A stretch of 64,000 nt of DNA from a candidate division BRC1 bacterium HGW-BRC1-1 (GTDB lineage: Bacteria > Sumerlaeota > Sumerlaeia > Sumerlaeales > Sumerlaeaceae). The DNA lies in assembly GCA_002842095.1 (NCBI GenBank), contig PHCB01000001.1:186001-250000 (forward strand), in the 5' to 3' direction. Shown here one piece after another: positions 3,540 to 38,397 of this stretch. Under the pieces are notes generated by a model, which saw nothing but the letters and a program-made list of their open reading frames with translations, made no database searches and was not told the origin of the DNA. The first letter of the stretch is position 1. Each line of letters starts with the position of its first letter. Both the position numbers and the translations under genes were made by a program.

Positions 3540-5090
3540 TCAGTAAACGGACCAGTCCGTCACGGCGGCTGTCGTCGTGGGGATCGTGATGTCGTCGTAG
3601 TAAACGTATGGATCAACCGTTTCGAAATAAATATGCGCCAGAGGGTCAACCGTGCGCCAGTTCGAGTAGCCACCCGAGGAAGCCGAGTCCGCCATCAAAC
3701 GCAGTTTCGGAGAATCAGAAAGACCGGGGCCCTTGAAGGCGCCGCTGCTGAAGCCGTCGATGGAAATCGTGCTGTCCGCATTGGTCATAGTAATCACCAC
3801 CTCGTGCCATCCGATGGTCCGGTTGCCGAAGACGCGTGATTCAAATCCCGCCGATGTTCCGGGAACGGGACGAATGGTGAGGAAGTAGTTGGGGCCACCG
3901 GGCGTCGGGTCGCTCGACATGGGGTAAGGGAAATTCCAAACCTCCGCGGCGAGGAAGTTCTCCGGGTTGCTGCCACTCTCGACCATGAAGCTGGCGCCGA
4001 ACAGCGTTTGCAGCGCTTCCGGCCCGCGCGCGTCATAGAACCAGAAACTCACCTGACCGTTCTCCGGAACACCGGAGAGATCGAAAGCGACGCTCTTGAA
4101 AGGTTCGGGGTTGTTTTTGAAGTAAGCAACATTGGAGCCGCCGTGGGCGATTCCCGTCGTCTGGGGTTCCCATTGGTTCACGAAGTCTGCCATGCGGGTG
4201 TTATCATTGGCGGGAATCAAGACCGGATGAGGGATAAGGAATGTGTCGTATTCGCCCGATTCAAAACCGTTTGTGTGAGAGGCAACGGCGGGGGTGACCG
4301 CATTGATCGCTATGTCATCGAAGTAGATCCAGCTTTTTGCAGCCACCTGCGCGAACTCGGTGCCGGGGGCCGTGGTGACCCAGTTTGGCATATAGCCCGG
4401 AGGCAGACCGGGCGTGCCAACCGGCGCGCTGCCATTGGCCGCAGAACCATTCATGAAACGCAGCCGAAGGGTTTTATCGCCACCGGGGCCGCCCACATCG
4501 ACCGCAGCGATTCCGTCAACGCTGAGCGTAGAGGCGGTAGCGCCGACAGTGAACGTGACCTGATGCCAACCCACAGAGCGGCCCACTGTGCTGGCTGCCC
4601 CCGACTCAAAGTTGTCACCAATGGTGCCACGATCAACCGAACCCTCGGTGCCGTAATAACGGCCACCGCCGTAAGCGAGTTCGTTCACTTCGATGGCCAC
4701 GAAATCTGATGGGTTGTTCTTGTCCTCAAGGATAATGGAACCGGAGGCTCTGGCCGCCAGAGGATTCGGGTTGAAAGCAGCCATGCCGCGCTCGTCATAA
4801 AACCAGACAGAGACGGTGCCTGTCTCCAGAACCGTGGGAGCAACGTCGTACGTGAAACTTTCAAAGAAACCCGCCCCCGGCTCAACAAACTTCAATGACT
4901 TGGTTCCGCCATGGGCCTGATCCGCGGTGGGTGCAAAGAACTTAACATCTCCCGAAACAATGGGGGATGAAAGCGGATTGGATGCCTCAAAATCGAAGAC
5001 AATCGGGGCCGCTTTGGCTGAAGTACCAAGGCCGAGTATCAGAAGTATGGTGGCAAAAAACATGCTTCCCGGAAGCGTTTGAAATTTCAT
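3540..5090 (-). CDS. Secreted protein with two tandem jelly-roll-like domains
   Basis: A 516-residue exported protein, not recognised as a named family. Residues 1-27 are a signal peptide ending AKA. The rest is an internal duplication: about residues 30-260 and 270-510 each contain VS(V/F)WFYD(E/D)RG, a YYG/YFLT segment, GWH(Q/E)V with a following beta strand and an S(V/I)DG turn, the pattern of concanavalin-like carbohydrate-binding or LamG-type modules. Each repeat ends with a YFDDI/YYDDI strand. No catalytic motif, no PEP-CTERM tail and no transmembrane anchor are visible. It lies just upstream of the pseudopilin gene on the same strand, so export through that machinery is possible. Confidence 0.8.
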   Translation of the reverse strand: MKFQTLPGSMFFATILLILGLGTSAKAAPIVFDFEASNPLSSPIVSGDVKFFAPTADQAHGGTKSLKFVEPGAGFFESFTYDVAPTVLETGTVSVWFYDERGMAAFNPNPLAARASGSIILEDKNNPSDFVAIEVNELAYGGGRYYGTEGSVDRGTIGDNFESGAASTVGRSVGWHQVTFTVGATASTLSVDGIAAVDVGGPGGDKTLRLRFMNGSAANGSAPVGTPGLPPGYMPNWVTTAPGTEFAQVAAKSWIYFDDIAINAVTPAVASHTNGFESGEYDTFLIPHPVLIPANDNTRMADFVNQWEPQTTGIAHGGSNVAYFKNNPEPFKSVAFDLSGVPENGQVSFWFYDARGPEALQTLFGASFMVESGSNPENFLAAEVWNFPYPMSSDPTPGGPNYFLTIRPVPGTSAGFESRVFGNRTIGWHEVVITMTNADSTISIDGFSSGAFKGPGLSDSPKLRLMADSASSGGYSNWRTVDPLAHIYFETVDPYVYYDDITIPTTTAAVTDWSVY

Positions 5091-32723: not shown

Positions 32724-35700
32724 TCAGGCTTCCTTCGTGTAGCGGTTCTCCAGCATTTTGCGGACGGCCTCTTCGGTCACGTTCACGCCCATGATGGCGC
32801 GCATGGCTACGACCTGGTTCAACGCGCCCTTAAGTTCGCGCACGTTGGAATCCACGCGCTCGGCGATCATCATGGCAATCTCGGTGTTGAAACCCAGCTC
32901 GTTGGTTTCGATCTCCCGGTTGAGGATGGCCACGCGGGTCTCGTAATCCGGGGCCGCTATGTCCACAATAACACCGGCGCCGAAACGCGACAGCAGGCGG
33001 TTCTCCAGATGAGCAATGTCCTTCGGTGGACGGTCACTCGTCACAACAATCTGGCGTTTGCTCTGGAACAGCGCGTTGAAGATGTGGAAGAATTCCTCCT
33101 GGGCCCGCTCCTTGCCGGAGAGAAACTGCACGTCGTCAACCACCAGCATGTCGATGTTCTTATACTTGCCGCGGAAGGCGTTCACAGCACTCGTCTGAAT
33201 GGCGTTCACCAGTTCGTCCGTGAAGTCCTCGCTGTTTGTATAAATGATGCGCGCGCGCGGATCCTCCCTCAGCACATGGTTTGCGATGGCGTTCACGAGG
33301 TGGGTTTTGCCCAGCCCCACATCGCTGTACAGGAACAACGGATTGTAAGCCCGCGCCGGGGCATTGGCCACAGCCCGCGCCGTGGCATAGGCGAAGTTGT
33401 TGTGGGTACCCACCACGAAATGTTCGAAGTCGTACTCCTTCACGAGTTGCAGGAAACCGTCGCGGGGTGTGACCGCTCCGGCCAGAGGAACGCCACCGGC
33501 CGGCGTGACGCTTTGAGCCGTTTGCATGGCCACGCGGCGATACGCATCAAGGGCTCTTTCCTGATCTCCCAGCGACGCGTATATCTCCGCCCGCTTGATC
33601 AACGTGGAGGGTCGATCCGGTGAAATTTGCAGGACACGCTCCAACGTCTCCAGCGCGGATTCGTGGTCGTTCGTCTCCACTTGCAGCTCGGACAGATTTT
33701 CCAGCTCGGGGATGGCGATGGTAATCTGGTTCGCAGCCACGAGGGCGTCGGCATAGCGAACCCGCGCCGGGGTGTGACGCGGCGAAACCAGCGTGGCTTC
33801 GCGCTCTGCTTCCAGCGCACCCTCCTCGTTGCTCGCCTCGCGCCGCACGTCGGCAATCAGGTGCAACTCGCCCATCGCCTCGGTGCTCATACCCCCGTCG
33901 CGGTAGAACTTGACCAACTGCAACCGCGCATCAACCAACGCGGGGTTGGCCGCAATAACTCGTTTAACCGCTTCGATGGCGCCGGTGTGGTCGCCCGCTT
34001 CGTGCAGCACGTCGGCCAACTGGCGCAACTGCTCGTGGGCTTTCTCCACGTTGCCGAGGCGCTCGTACAAGCGCACCAGTTCCTCGCGCGCTCCCACGTG
34101 CGATGGTCCCGTAGAAAGCACCTGAAGATAGGTGATCTCCGCGTCGTCGTATTCTTCACGGGCGTGGTAATCACGAGCCAGTTCGAACTGCCGTTCCAGC
34201 GCTTCTTCCGTGCGTCCCAAACGGCGCAGGAAGTCGATCCGGTTCATGCGCAAACGGAGATTAGTGGGGTCGGCCTCGGCAATCTGATCGTACACCAGCA
34301 CCGCGTCGCCCTCGCGCGTTTCTTCCAGCAACAACTCCACCAGGAACAGGCCCCGCGTTACGGCCTCTTCCGCGTGGCCGCCGTCACGCAATAGATTGAA
34401 CAGGTCGTGAAGGGTTTCCACATCGTTGGGCTTGCGATCCAGAACAGAAGCCAGCGTGGCCCGGGCATCCTCGGCGTGGTCGCTCTTCACCTGAACCGCC
34501 GCCAACTGCCGCGCCGCCGCACACGCAGCGGATTCATCACCGCGCAGGAATTCGCACGTAATCAGTTCATACAGAATCTCCGGGTCTTCAGCGGAGAACG
34601 TCAGTGCGTCGCGCAAAACCTGCGATTCCCGGGTGTGCTCGCCCGCCTCGCGATGCTGCAACGCCTGCCGCAAACGGGTTGCTGCTGAAAAAATACGCAA
34701 CTCGATCCGCGAGCGTTCCTCGTCGCCAAGTTTCGCGAACAACTCCGCACGAATTTTCATGGCCGACAACCGCTTGGGAGCGATCTCCAACAGCGCGTTG
34801 AGTTGCGCCATGGCCTCCTTCAATCGGTCCGTTTCGATCAAGCGTGAAGCCAGCGCTTCCGAGACATCGCAGGCTTCTTCATCCCGACCCAACCCCGCCA
34901 GCGCCGTAACCTGTCGCAAGCGCAGGGGCACGTCGTCGGGCATCAAATCCGCCGCCTCGCGGTTAGCCACCAAACCGGCCTCGGCGTCACCAGCCTCGCG
35001 GAGCAGATCCGCGATGGACGTCAGTTCTGTGGCCGCCTCCGGCAGGTTGTTCCGGGCCACAAGGTACTCCACAACCATGCGACGGACTTCCACATCGCGG
35101 GGGTGCTTCTCCACGACCTGCCGCGCAACCGCGAGGGCTTCGTCCGTATCGCCGGCCGTGTGCAACGTTTCTGCCAACGCCCGCCATTGCTCGCGTTCGC
35201 GGGTCGCGTCGCCCGTGTCGCGGAACAACTCGGCCAGACGGCGATGCAACCGCGCCTCGCCCGGAGCATGGCCCAGAGCCTCGAACAGCAGTTTCTCGGC
35301 CTCGGCGGCATCACCCGCCTCTGTTTGCAACCGAGCGAGAACCAGCGCCTTCTCCAGGGCCTCCGAACCCAACTCAACCCGACGCAACAATTCCAACTCT
35401 TCGTACTTCCAGCCAAGATCGTCGGCGAATAGGTCCCCCACTTGCGCGAAGGTGCGGGCGGCCTCTCCGGCGCGACCCGAATTAACCTGAAGTTCGGCCA
35501 GACGGCGGGCCCTGTCGCGCACGTCATCCGACGGCGGCTTGCGCATGCTGAGTTCGAACAACAACTCCGCCGTGGGCAAATCTTCCGGAGCATTGTCCGA
35601 TGCCGACCGAAGGACTTCCCGTGCCTCGGGCAATTTTTTGCCCTTCAGTTTCAGACCGGCCAAATCACGCGCCGCCGCACAGGCTTCCTCACCGTGCTCA

Positions 35701-37982
35701 CGCGCAAACTGGCATTCGACCATCAGCGCGAGGAAATCCTCATCGGCGGGGAAAGCAACCAACCCCTCGCCCAACACCCGGCGTTCCTCGTTGCGATCGC
35801 CCTTGTCGCGCCAAACCTTCGCAAGCTCGGCACGCCACAAGTGGGCTGCCTCCGCATCGCCCTGAGCGGTGTACATCTGAACCAATTGATCCAGAGCATC
35901 GATGTCATCGGGAGAGAGAGACGCGACACGTTCCAATGTCGCAACGGCCGATGCGGGATCCCCGGCTCCCGAATAGGCATTTGCCAGCAGGCGCAATGTT
36001 TTCGCCAGTTCTGATGTGGAACTGTGCCCTTCCTGCAAAGCAACCAAATCACCCAGAACGTTCAGGTTCGCGGGAGCCATCGCCAGGGCTTCGACCAGAC
36101 TGCGTTCCGCCGTTTCGAAATCACCCTTTTCGCTCGCTGCCATGGCCGTGTCACGATATGTCGCCAGGGCATCATCGTTGCGTCCGGCTCGCTGCAACAT
36201 GCCCGCCAGACGTTGCGCTATCCCCAGATCCGCAGGAAGCAGCTGTGAGAAATACTCTCCCTCTGCCAGCGCCTCTTCGCCACGGCCGGCCTTGTCCAGC
36301 GCCTCCAGAGCTTCCAACGCTGCGACCCGCGCGAGACGCAGATCGCCCGAACGGAATCGGCTGCGCGCCAGCTTCGACAGCAACTCGGGGCGCATCGGCC
36401 CGAGTGAGCTTGCCCGCAAAAAATGCGATGTCGCGGTGTGTCCCGAGGTCGCATCTTGAAACAGATCGCCGACACTTTCCCATGCGCGACTTGCCGCCTC
36501 CAGGGCGGCCACTTTGCCACTGCGACCAAGTCCCTCCAACGCCTCGGCGCGCCTCATGCCAATTTGTGGATTAGTGGGCTCTGTAACTACCGCGCGTTCC
36601 AGCACCTCGGCCGCCGGACCAAAATCTCCCTGCCCAAGATGAACCGCCGCCAGACGAAGCAACAATTCGTTCGCTTCAACAGTCGCTCCCTGCCCCTCGC
36701 GCACATCCGCACCAGCCAGCAGTGCCGCAGCGTGATTCGGGTACAATTCCAGCACGGTGTCCAACATCTCGCGACCACCGCTCAGATCGCCCTGGTCCAT
36801 CAGCGTCCGCGCAAGATCGACCTTCAGATCCGCAGCTTCGCCCGCGCGTCCCGCCTCCACATATGCCGCATGCAAACGGTCAACAGCTTCGGGCAGCCGC
36901 GGCCAGTGGGTCAGAAGACGCTGCAATGCCTCAATGGCGCGGTCCTTCTCGCCCATCGACGCAAGCAAGTCTGTGGCCGCCAACACGCGCGGCAGATAGT
37001 CCTCGCGCGGCGACGCCAGCAGAGCGTACTCGATCCACTTCGACCGGATATCGGAGCGATCAGGCAACACATCAAACAGCGGTTCCAGTTCCCCCGCCGC
37101 GGTGGTGAAGTCCGCGTGGTTTGCCGCGCGCGATGCCTTCCCCGTAATGTGGTCCACGCAATCGTCCAAACGCCCCGCCTGTGTGAACGCATGAATCAGG
37201 TGCGGGTTCACATCGACGATATCCACGTCCAAATCTTCGATGCGCGTATACGCTTCAATGGCCCCCGGCCAATCCGCCGCGGCTTCGCACAAGTCTGCGG
37301 CAGCCATGAATTCTTCCAGCGCCGATTCCTTGTCATGCATCTGAAGGAAACATTCGGCGACAAGTTTGCGACACGCAGTGTCGTTTGGTCGCGAAGCAGC
37401 AAGCGCCCGCGCCTGATCCAGCGCGCTGTCCATCTGACGGTTCTGCAACGCCATGCGAACCAGCGCCTGCCGGCTGCGCGTCTGGGTTTCCTCATCTTCG
37501 CGCGCTATCGCTGTTTTCAACAAACCAGTCCACGCCCGCTCGAAAGCCGGCTCCGCATCGACGATGGCTTCAAACGTCTTCGCCGCATCATCCAGATAAC
37601 CGAGATCGAGATAGTTCTCGGCCACCTCCACATTTTTCTTCAACAGTTCCGGATCTTGAGGAATGCGAATGCTGATGCCGAACTCGGTCATCAGCGCCTC
37701 GGCCGCTTCGTTCTCATTGATACGGCGCGCCAGGGCCACCAGGCGCACAAGACTACCACCCTCGGCGCCATCGCACAAACCATACATGCAGCGGAAGGTC
37801 TGGTGGTCTTTGTTCACGACCAACGTGCGAAACACATTCTCCCGGTGAATGGGGCAGAACGCTCGCAGCGTATCTCCCGCGTCTTGAATTTTCTCGGCTT
37901 TGTAACCGATGAACTCCAACACACGTCGCGGATCGACGGCGTTGTTAATCTCAATTAAGCTGCTGTCGGGAAATATCCTCAT
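32724..37982 (-). CDS. Giant fusion: CHC2 zinc finger, TPR-like array and DnaA AAA+ domain
   Basis: A protein of 1,752 residues in three parts. Residues 15-105 resemble the DnaG-type CHC2 zinc finger: Cys43 and His46 (FCPIH), Cys65 and Cys70 (CMYGLC), then the VRLVALARRI helix and EALMTEFGI. Residues about 115-1,500 are alternating helices of TPR type (repeated GD..EA...Y..AL...P..), arranged in larger units of roughly 100 residues. Residues 1,504-1,752 match DnaA domain III: YDFEHFVVGTHNNFAYA, P-loop SDVGLGKT (1,553-1,560), Walker B MLVVDDVQFL, sensor 1 VVTSDRPP, the arginine-finger helix ENRLLSRFG and sensor 2 SNVRELKGALNQ. It stops there, without the DNA-binding domain IV. The ATG at 37982 was chosen; longer starts run into the divergent gene. 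Function unknown; it is not a canonical initiator. Confidence 0.88.
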   Translation of the reverse strand: MRIFPDSSLIEINNAVDPRRVLEFIGYKAEKIQDAGDTLRAFCPIHRENVFRTLVVNKDHQTFRCMYGLCDGAEGGSLVRLVALARRINENEAAEALMTEFGISIRIPQDPELLKKNVEVAENYLDLGYLDDAAKTFEAIVDAEPAFERAWTGLLKTAIAREDEETQTRSRQALVRMALQNRQMDSALDQARALAASRPNDTACRKLVAECFLQMHDKESALEEFMAAADLCEAAADWPGAIEAYTRIEDLDVDIVDVNPHLIHAFTQAGRLDDCVDHITGKASRAANHADFTTAAGELEPLFDVLPDRSDIRSKWIEYALLASPREDYLPRVLAATDLLASMGEKDRAIEALQRLLTHWPRLPEAVDRLHAAYVEAGRAGEAADLKVDLARTLMDQGDLSGGREMLDTVLELYPNHAAALLAGADVREGQGATVEANELLLRLAAVHLGQGDFGPAAEVLERAVVTEPTNPQIGMRRAEALEGLGRSGKVAALEAASRAWESVGDLFQDATSGHTATSHFLRASSLGPMRPELLSKLARSRFRSGDLRLARVAALEALEALDKAGRGEEALAEGEYFSQLLPADLGIAQRLAGMLQRAGRNDDALATYRDTAMAASEKGDFETAERSLVEALAMAPANLNVLGDLVALQEGHSSTSELAKTLRLLANAYSGAGDPASAVATLERVASLSPDDIDALDQLVQMYTAQGDAEAAHLWRAELAKVWRDKGDRNEERRVLGEGLVAFPADEDFLALMVECQFAREHGEEACAAARDLAGLKLKGKKLPEAREVLRSASDNAPEDLPTAELLFELSMRKPPSDDVRDRARRLAELQVNSGRAGEAARTFAQVGDLFADDLGWKYEELELLRRVELGSEALEKALVLARLQTEAGDAAEAEKLLFEALGHAPGEARLHRRLAELFRDTGDATREREQWRALAETLHTAGDTDEALAVARQVVEKHPRDVEVRRMVVEYLVARNNLPEAATELTSIADLLREAGDAEAGLVANREAADLMPDDVPLRLRQVTALAGLGRDEEACDVSEALASRLIETDRLKEAMAQLNALLEIAPKRLSAMKIRAELFAKLGDEERSRIELRIFSAATRLRQALQHREAGEHTRESQVLRDALTFSAEDPEILYELITCEFLRGDESAACAAARQLAAVQVKSDHAEDARATLASVLDRKPNDVETLHDLFNLLRDGGHAEEAVTRGLFLVELLLEETREGDAVLVYDQIAEADPTNLRLRMNRIDFLRRLGRTEEALERQFELARDYHAREEYDDAEITYLQVLSTGPSHVGAREELVRLYERLGNVEKAHEQLRQLADVLHEAGDHTGAIEAVKRVIAANPALVDARLQLVKFYRDGGMSTEAMGELHLIADVRREASNEEGALEAEREATLVSPRHTPARVRYADALVAANQITIAIPELENLSELQVETNDHESALETLERVLQISPDRPSTLIKRAEIYASLGDQERALDAYRRVAMQTAQSVTPAGGVPLAGAVTPRDGFLQLVKEYDFEHFVVGTHNNFAYATARAVANAPARAYNPLFLYSDVGLGKTHLVNAIANHVLREDPRARIIYTNSEDFTDELVNAIQTSAVNAFRGKYKNIDMLVVDDVQFLSGKERAQEEFFHIFNALFQSKRQIVVTSDRPPKDIAHLENRLLSRFGAGVIVDIAAPDYETRVAILNREIETNELGFNTEIAMMIAERVDSNVRELKGALNQVVAMRAIMGVNVTEEAVRKMLENRYTKEA

Positions 37983-38085
37983 GATGGCTTCAGATTTAGT
38001 GAAGCCCGAAGCGCTGCTTGCAAAAGAATTATCGCCTGAATCATGATCCAATCGCTTCAAAGAACCCTCAGGAGAAGCCCCCAAT

Positions 38086-38397
38086 ATGGACGATACCTAT
38101 CAAATCAAGTGTCCCTGCTGTCAGACCATCCTCATTGTGGAACGACGCTCGGGCAAGATTGTGGATGAACGCCGACCGATTCTTGAGCAGTCCACCGGTG
38201 ATCGCTATCAGGATGCCCTCAAAAAGGTGCAGGAGCGCGGTGCCGTGGCCGAGGAAAAGTTCCAGAAATTTCAGAAGGAACGCGGAACCAAGATGGACAA
38301 GCTCGACGCGCTTTTCAACGACGCGCTTAAGCGTGCCGAGGAAGAGCAATCCGATGATGACGACGAAAAGCCCCGCAATCCCTTCGACATGGATTGA
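38086..38397 (+). CDS. Small zinc-ribbon and coiled-coil protein
   Basis: A 103-residue protein. The N-terminus has CPCC, enough for a half zinc ribbon or a dimeric metal site, followed by a short basic beta segment (ILIVERRSGKIVDERRP). Residues 35-90 are highly charged and helical, likely a coiled coil (YQDALKKVQERGAVAEEKFQKFQKERGTKMDKLDALFNDALKRAEEE), with an acidic tail. An AGGAGA ribosome site is 10 bases upstream. It is divergent from the giant DnaA-fusion gene, 103 bases apart, so the two may share control. I know no function. Confidence 0.8.
   Translation: MDDTYQIKCPCCQTILIVERRSGKIVDERRPILEQSTGDRYQDALKKVQERGAVAEEKFQKFQKERGTKMDKLDALFNDALKRAEEEQSDDDDEKPRNPFDMD

Follow-up and report, generated by a model that had tools for sequence, protein, structure and literature searches.

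Replication modules that seem to be built into an undescribed membrane-linked machine in Sumerlaeota

The fusion gene and its three parts

We analysed a 64,000-nucleotide stretch of a Sumerlaeota genome (the window, in the following), in which one gene on the reverse strand encodes a protein made of a DnaG-type zinc ribbon, a long array of helical repeats and a DnaA-type AAA+ ATPase. We refer to this protein as the fusion. Its features are as follows, with positions numbered along the window:

32724..37982 (-): whole gene, CHC2 ribbon + array of 54-residue repeats + DnaA-type AAA+ domain (translation, Pfam, orthologs)
37653..37982 (-): DnaG-type CHC2 zinc ribbon, residues 1-110 (PF01807, hhalign, AF2, Foldseek)
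37854..37856 (-): zinc ligand C43, invariant in 28
37845..37847 (-): zinc ligand H46, invariant in 28
37788..37790 (-): zinc ligand C65, invariant in 28
37773..37775 (-): zinc ligand C70, invariant in 28
33516..37637 (-): about 25 TPR-like repeats, each of three helices and 54 residues, residues 116-1489 (autocorrelation, stacking, model, Pfam TPR)
33453..33515 (-): flexible linker, Ala/Gly/Pro/Thr-rich, residues 1490-1510 (pLDDT <50; sequence)
32727..33452 (-): DnaA domain III-type AAA+ ATPase, residues 1511-1752 (PF00308, 216 bits; Foldseek 8bv3)
33303..33326 (-): Walker A SDVGLGKT (K1559), K in 27/27 fusions
33132..33137 (-): Walker B D1616-D1617, 27/27 fusions
32985..32987 (-): arginine finger R1666 (E. 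coli DnaA R285), 27/27 fusions
32838..32840 (-): sensor II R1715 (E. coli DnaA R334), 27/27 fusions

The first-pass annotation had proposed a single 1,752-residue protein, and the translation bears this out: the frame at 32724-37982 (-) yields 1,752 amino acids plus a stop codon, with no internal stop and no frameshift. A longer alternative frame begins at a TTG at 38084; the relatives align from the ATG at 37982, which is the start that fits the orthologs (MSIYPE...). The source assembly comprises 3.77 Mb in 34 contigs. Two other frames in the window were noted in passing. One is a 103-residue frame with a CPCC motif (38086-38397, +) that is divergent from the fusion gene and has no convincing family match, and the other a 516-residue frame (3540-5090, -) without a Pfam match at 1e-6.

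The N-terminal zinc finger of CHC2 type that had been read from the letters was recovered by profile and structure comparisons. The CHC2 model (PF01807) scored 19.6 bits in the scan of the whole protein, below the cut-off of 24.9, and 26.0 bits, above the cut-off, when residues 1-110 were scanned alone; 22 of the 28 relatives match the same model. C43, H46, C65 and C70 are unchanged across the 28-member alignment. A profile comparison with hhalign paired the ribbon with the zinc domain of DnaG from its own genome at 97.5% probability, the AlphaFold2 model reached a pLDDT of 92.2, and the only significant Foldseek matches in the PDB were the DnaG zinc domains 2au3 and 1d0q. These results identify the ribbon as a DnaG-type zinc domain. 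Its ligands are spaced C-x2-H-x18-C-x4-C, with the gap between the last two Cys two residues longer than in the DnaG of the same genome. In family f13 (L059, L136) the ribbon has lost its zinc ligands, and the remainder of the fusion is kept.

Many Pfam TPR models match between the ribbon and the AAA+ domain. The first-pass annotation had described this part as about 1,400 residues of TPR-like helical repeats; the array is confirmed at about 1,370 residues, with a unit of 54 residues and not the plain 34-residue TPR. The autocorrelation has peaks at exactly 54 residues and at multiples of this length that far exceed the values of shuffled sequences, and in one ortholog (L075) 18 units of 54 residues stack without insertion or deletion, so a plain 34-residue array was replaced by the longer unit. 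Each unit can be divided into 34 + 20 residues, a TPR-like helix pair followed by a third helix, and the structure model of the C-terminal units shows three helices per unit. Outside the family of the window's genome the fusion is mostly about 1,360-1,380 residues long, and within that family its lengths lie near 1,750 and 2,140 residues. The internal similarity of the rod in this family peaks at a lag of 386 residues. From this lag and the steps in length, the family probably lengthened its rod in 386-residue steps by block duplication.

The DnaA AAA+ domain that had been placed at the C-terminus is present, although it corresponds to domain III only. Bac_DnaA (PF00308) matches residues 1514-1674 with 216 bits, and neither domain IV (PF08299) nor domain I (PF11638) was among the Pfam matches listed for the fusion; the protein ends with domain III and lacks the helix-turn-helix domain IV. 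A model of the C-terminal 440 residues displays repeats, the low-confidence linker and the AAA+ domain. In Foldseek this domain aligned to domain III of B. subtilis DnaA (8bv3) with a TMt of 0.93 and 48% identity, and to Hda with a TMt of about 0.67-0.72. The structure predictions suggested by the first-pass annotation thus return DnaG for one end of the protein (pLDDT 92) and DnaA domain III for the other, and the head is a DnaA-type ATPase. With the DnaA model TIGR00362 the fusion scores 322.6 bits, below the curated cut-off of 343.9. In E. coli numbering, K178, D235, D236, R281, R285 and R334 are kept in 27/27 fusions; we take the roles of the numbered residues to be those of E. coli DnaA. 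Of the positions that contact single-stranded DNA, 211 is V or I in 25/27 and 245 is R in 22/27. W288 is replaced in all 27 fusions and E337 is changed to K in 25 of them, so the surfaces of the head have diverged from DnaA. We predict from these residues that the head is a competent ATPase able to stack.

Distribution, descent and neighbouring genes

We surveyed 40 Sumerlaeota genomes. The zinc domain occurs in 37, usually in several copies, and 35 have another strong DnaA-type domain, of the kind found in the fusion. When we looked for the three-part order in related genomes, ribbon and DnaA domain shared one uninterrupted frame in 27 of the 40. In the remaining genomes the gene is broken, mostly at contig ends; in G001 it is split into two overlapping frames. 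We found neither a frameshift or join inside the frame, nor a missing end domain, nor an occurrence confined to a single genome, and the recurrence of the three-part order across genomes led us to reject an assembly join. The sole genome outside the class Sumerlaeia (G039) has zinc-ribbon proteins and no fusion, which makes the fusion so far a trait of the class. A contig scan of named genomes with one peptide pattern found the zinc domain almost only in Candidatus Sumerlaeota (former BRC1); UBP4 and a few other bacteria were the exceptions.

A tree of 64 DnaA-type domains groups the 27 fusions in a single clade (100/99); the canonical DnaA of Sumerlaeia are separate from it and fall among ordinary DnaA. 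A recent fusion from the organism's own dnaA was rejected on the grounds of this separate clade. Within the clade the families mostly group together, as expected for vertical descent. A plasmid or mobile origin was likewise set aside: tblastn against plasmids matched the DnaA region only, among the 20 records listed.

A canonical DnaA stands beside the fusion in nearly every Sumerlaeota genome. When we looked for separate dnaA and dnaG genes in the genome of the window, both were present: dnaA lies on contig C11 and is complete (domains I, III and IV), and dnaG lies on contig C12. A DnaC-like loader with its own zinc cluster is also encoded on contig C11. With all three present, the fusion does not replace the normal replication genes. 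The fusion gene is not adjacent to dnaA, dnaN or dnaG. PADLOC returned no anti-phage model match, and we dropped an anti-phage system as a candidate.

In many families the gene directly downstream of the fusion encodes a protein whose length is about 180-230 residues; it spans the membrane once and contains two SHOCT-like hairpins, with a match to Pfam SHOCT. A profile search detected this protein in 36/40 genomes, in nearly all as a single copy, and in 33 of the 35 fusion-bearing genomes. Its gene lies directly downstream on the same strand in 18 genomes from 7 families. The two genes are apart in 15 genomes, including that of the window, where the SHOCT gene is found about 48 kb from the fusion and outside the window (G000:C8:170449-170964). 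The positive charge around the single hydrophobic segment is mostly on its C side, for which reason the SHOCT part should be mostly cytoplasmic. The SHOCT gene is followed by a third gene in families f7 and f13 (L053:3552-5654, L054, L058, L059, L134-L136); its product of about 685-700 residues has a hydrophobic segment at the N-terminus and matched nothing in Pfam.

Paralogs and known relatives

The zinc ribbon also heads at least two further subfamilies according to a zinc-domain tree, whose 110 columns resolve the subfamilies roughly. The giant paralogs have about 2,450-3,130 residues, no AAA+ domain and, in those tested, the 54-residue period; those at L035:5045-12844 (G000:C16) and L063-L072 measure 2,600-3,100 residues. 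In 11 of 14 loci the preceding gene codes for a conserved protein that has two hydrophobic segments, one of them signal-like, and the scanned members of this protein carry SPOR domains. The short paralogs (L036, L102-L111) comprise about 500 residues including the ribbon, and in four loci of families f7 and f13 they adjoin a PilT-type ATPase. A weak zinc-ribbon match was also seen within a 3,845-residue open frame (G015:C112:24762-24998).

In UBP4 a SPOR protein likewise precedes a giant zinc-ribbon form (L193). The same lineage encodes, in UBA6127, a fusion of MshEN with a DnaA-type AAA+ domain that has no domain IV beside it (L191:7340-8953); this protein falls outside the fusion clade, on a long branch of the 64-domain tree. 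Like the fusion, it places this ATPase in a non-initiator architecture, with MshEN in place of ribbon and rod. The literature search returned no paper that joins MshEN and DnaA. MshEN is described as the c-di-GMP-binding domain of pilus and secretion ATPases (PMC5013675).

We then compared the fusion with known systems. Its head has the same fold as DnaA domain III (PF00308; 8bv3/8btg), belongs to the same clade and keeps the catalytic and most of the ssDNA-contact positions; it differs from DnaA by the absence of domains I and IV, by the replaced W288 and E337 and by its place on a giant rod. The ribbon shares the fold and the C-H-C-C ligand set of the DnaG zinc domain (PF01807; 1d0q, 2au3). 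It deviates from DnaG in the longer gap between the last two Cys and in the missing helicase-binding domain, and, unlike the ribbon of DnaG, it is common to at least three paralogous rod proteins. No TOPRIM catalytic core of DnaG was among the Pfam matches listed, and the rest of the fusion consists of repeats and the AAA+ domain.

Hda, a paralog of DnaA, has no domain IV and can contact DnaA by way of its AAA+ faces. The fusion resembles it in lacking the domain that binds DnaA boxes, but its AAA+ domain is much closer to DnaA than to Hda and its score with the Hda model (TIGR03420) is 88.4 bits, below the cut-off of 194.8. The fusion fails testable defining features of DnaA, DnaG and Hda alike. 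In DnaI, too, a zinc module is combined with an AAA+ domain from the wider clade. The fusion has this wider clade in common with DnaI and DnaC, yet it is a giant protein with an AAA+ domain of a different subgroup. With the long TPR scaffolds SgmX, PilW and MamA it shares a TPR-type solenoid and weak model matches far below all cut-offs (60.9 bits versus a cut-off of 1800 for the SgmX model NF052243); its 54-residue three-helix unit and the added AAA+ and zinc domains set it apart from them. The first-pass annotation had called the architecture undescribed. No result contradicts this, and a literature search that covered few subscription journals found no paper describing a CHC2-rod-DnaA protein.

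Proposed role and alternatives

We consider it quite possible, if short of probable, that the fusion is a cytoplasmic, ATP-switched scaffold that has a link to the inner membrane and was passed down at least from the ancestor of the class Sumerlaeia. Its task would probably not be to start replication itself but the ATP-dependent positioning or assembly of an envelope-associated machine or of a junction between DNA and membrane. DnaA domain III stacks head-to-tail with ATP. We infer an ATP-dependent assembly of a similar kind, in which ATP would enable head-to-tail stacking of the AAA+ heads with one another or with DnaA, the solenoid would be the arm that holds partners and the single-pass SHOCT protein would tie the assembly to the membrane. 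The zinc ribbon, which is common to paralogs without the ATPase, would form a docking or nucleic-acid-binding end. We prefer a membrane-linked scaffold to a replication factor mainly because the partners of all three subfamilies have envelope character. Several observations speak against it. The putative SHOCT link consists of genomic co-occurrence and adjacency, with the genes apart in 15 genomes, and the zinc ligands are lost in family f13 (L059). The kept ssDNA-contact positions and the primase-type ribbon would also suit a DNA-based role.

The strongest rival, on account of the intact DnaA-like contact residues, is control of DnaA. The head might join or cap DnaA-ATP filaments or stimulate ATP hydrolysis as Hda does, which acts on DnaA-ATP together with the sliding clamp, so that initiation would be controlled in space, with rod and membrane partner placing this control at the envelope. 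The ATP and ssDNA-binding positions are kept, hence such control has to be considered; the equivalents of the head-to-tail contact residues R281, R285 and R334 are retained in 27/27 fusions, the domain that binds DnaA boxes is missing as in Hda, and a canonical DnaA is available in nearly every genome. However, no linkage to dnaA or dnaN was seen, W288 and E337 are replaced as given above, and those paralogs that lack an AAA+ domain have retained both ribbon and repeats and are paired with envelope genes. We rate control of DnaA as rather unlikely. The first-pass annotation had proposed a role in replication control, loading or chromosome organisation. The ATP-binding, arginine-finger and sensor positions of DnaA and most of its ssDNA-contact positions are kept, which would suit such a role. 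A function as loader or initiator is countered by the dnaA, dnaG and DnaC-like loader of the same genome, by the missing DnaA-box-binding and primase catalytic domains, by the distance of the gene from dnaA, dnaN and dnaG and by the membrane character of the conserved partner. With dnaG and a separate zinc-bearing DnaC-like loader in the same genome, we give little credence to a helicase- or primase-loading factor whose head loads DnaB like DnaC or DnaI and whose ribbon contacts primase or template. DnaI offers a precedent for the combination of zinc module and AAA+ domain, and the ribbon is that of DnaG, but the AAA+ domain is DnaA domain III and not DnaC-like, and there is no primase catalytic domain.

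An unlikely alternative, though clearly less so than a loading factor, is a factor that positions or regulates machines for type IV pili or secretion, with the AAA+ head as switch and the rod as polar scaffold. It agrees with the place of a zinc-ribbon paralog beside PilT-type ATPases, with the fusion of a DnaA-type AAA+ domain to MshEN in UBP4 (MshEN function from PMC5013675) and with the 15 strong matches to T2SSE, a pilus or secretion ATPase, in the genome of the window, a number that looks unusually large. The fusion gene itself, however, is not beside pilus genes, and the UBP4 protein lies on its long branch outside the fusion clade. A chance fusion or assembly join without function can practically be dismissed: no support for it was found, the nearest observation being the split frame in G001, and the survey refutes it with the same order as one frame in 27 genomes, a near-constant length of about 1,365 amino acids outside the window's family, a monophyletic AAA+ domain and intact catalytic residues.

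A DnaA domain III or a DnaG zinc ribbon is almost automatically read as a replication part. Here both modules are found on a conserved giant protein that is not an initiator and not a primase, the organisms have retained the usual replication genes, and the modules seem to be built into an undescribed membrane-linked machine. If the preferred reading of an ATP-switched, membrane-linked scaffold is true, the fusion represents an undescribed class of such scaffolds, DnaA-type ATPases have a second job, and there is a concrete handle on cell organisation across a whole, largely uncultured phylum. A broader and more doubtful proposal is that a phylum-level Sumerlaeota family of giant zinc-ribbon solenoids uses dedicated membrane partners to couple envelope machines with the cytoplasm and that one branch gained a DnaA head; the resulting membrane-tethered, DnaA-like switch could tie chromosome replication or segregation to the envelope. 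Automatic annotation can also label such a fusion gene dnaA.
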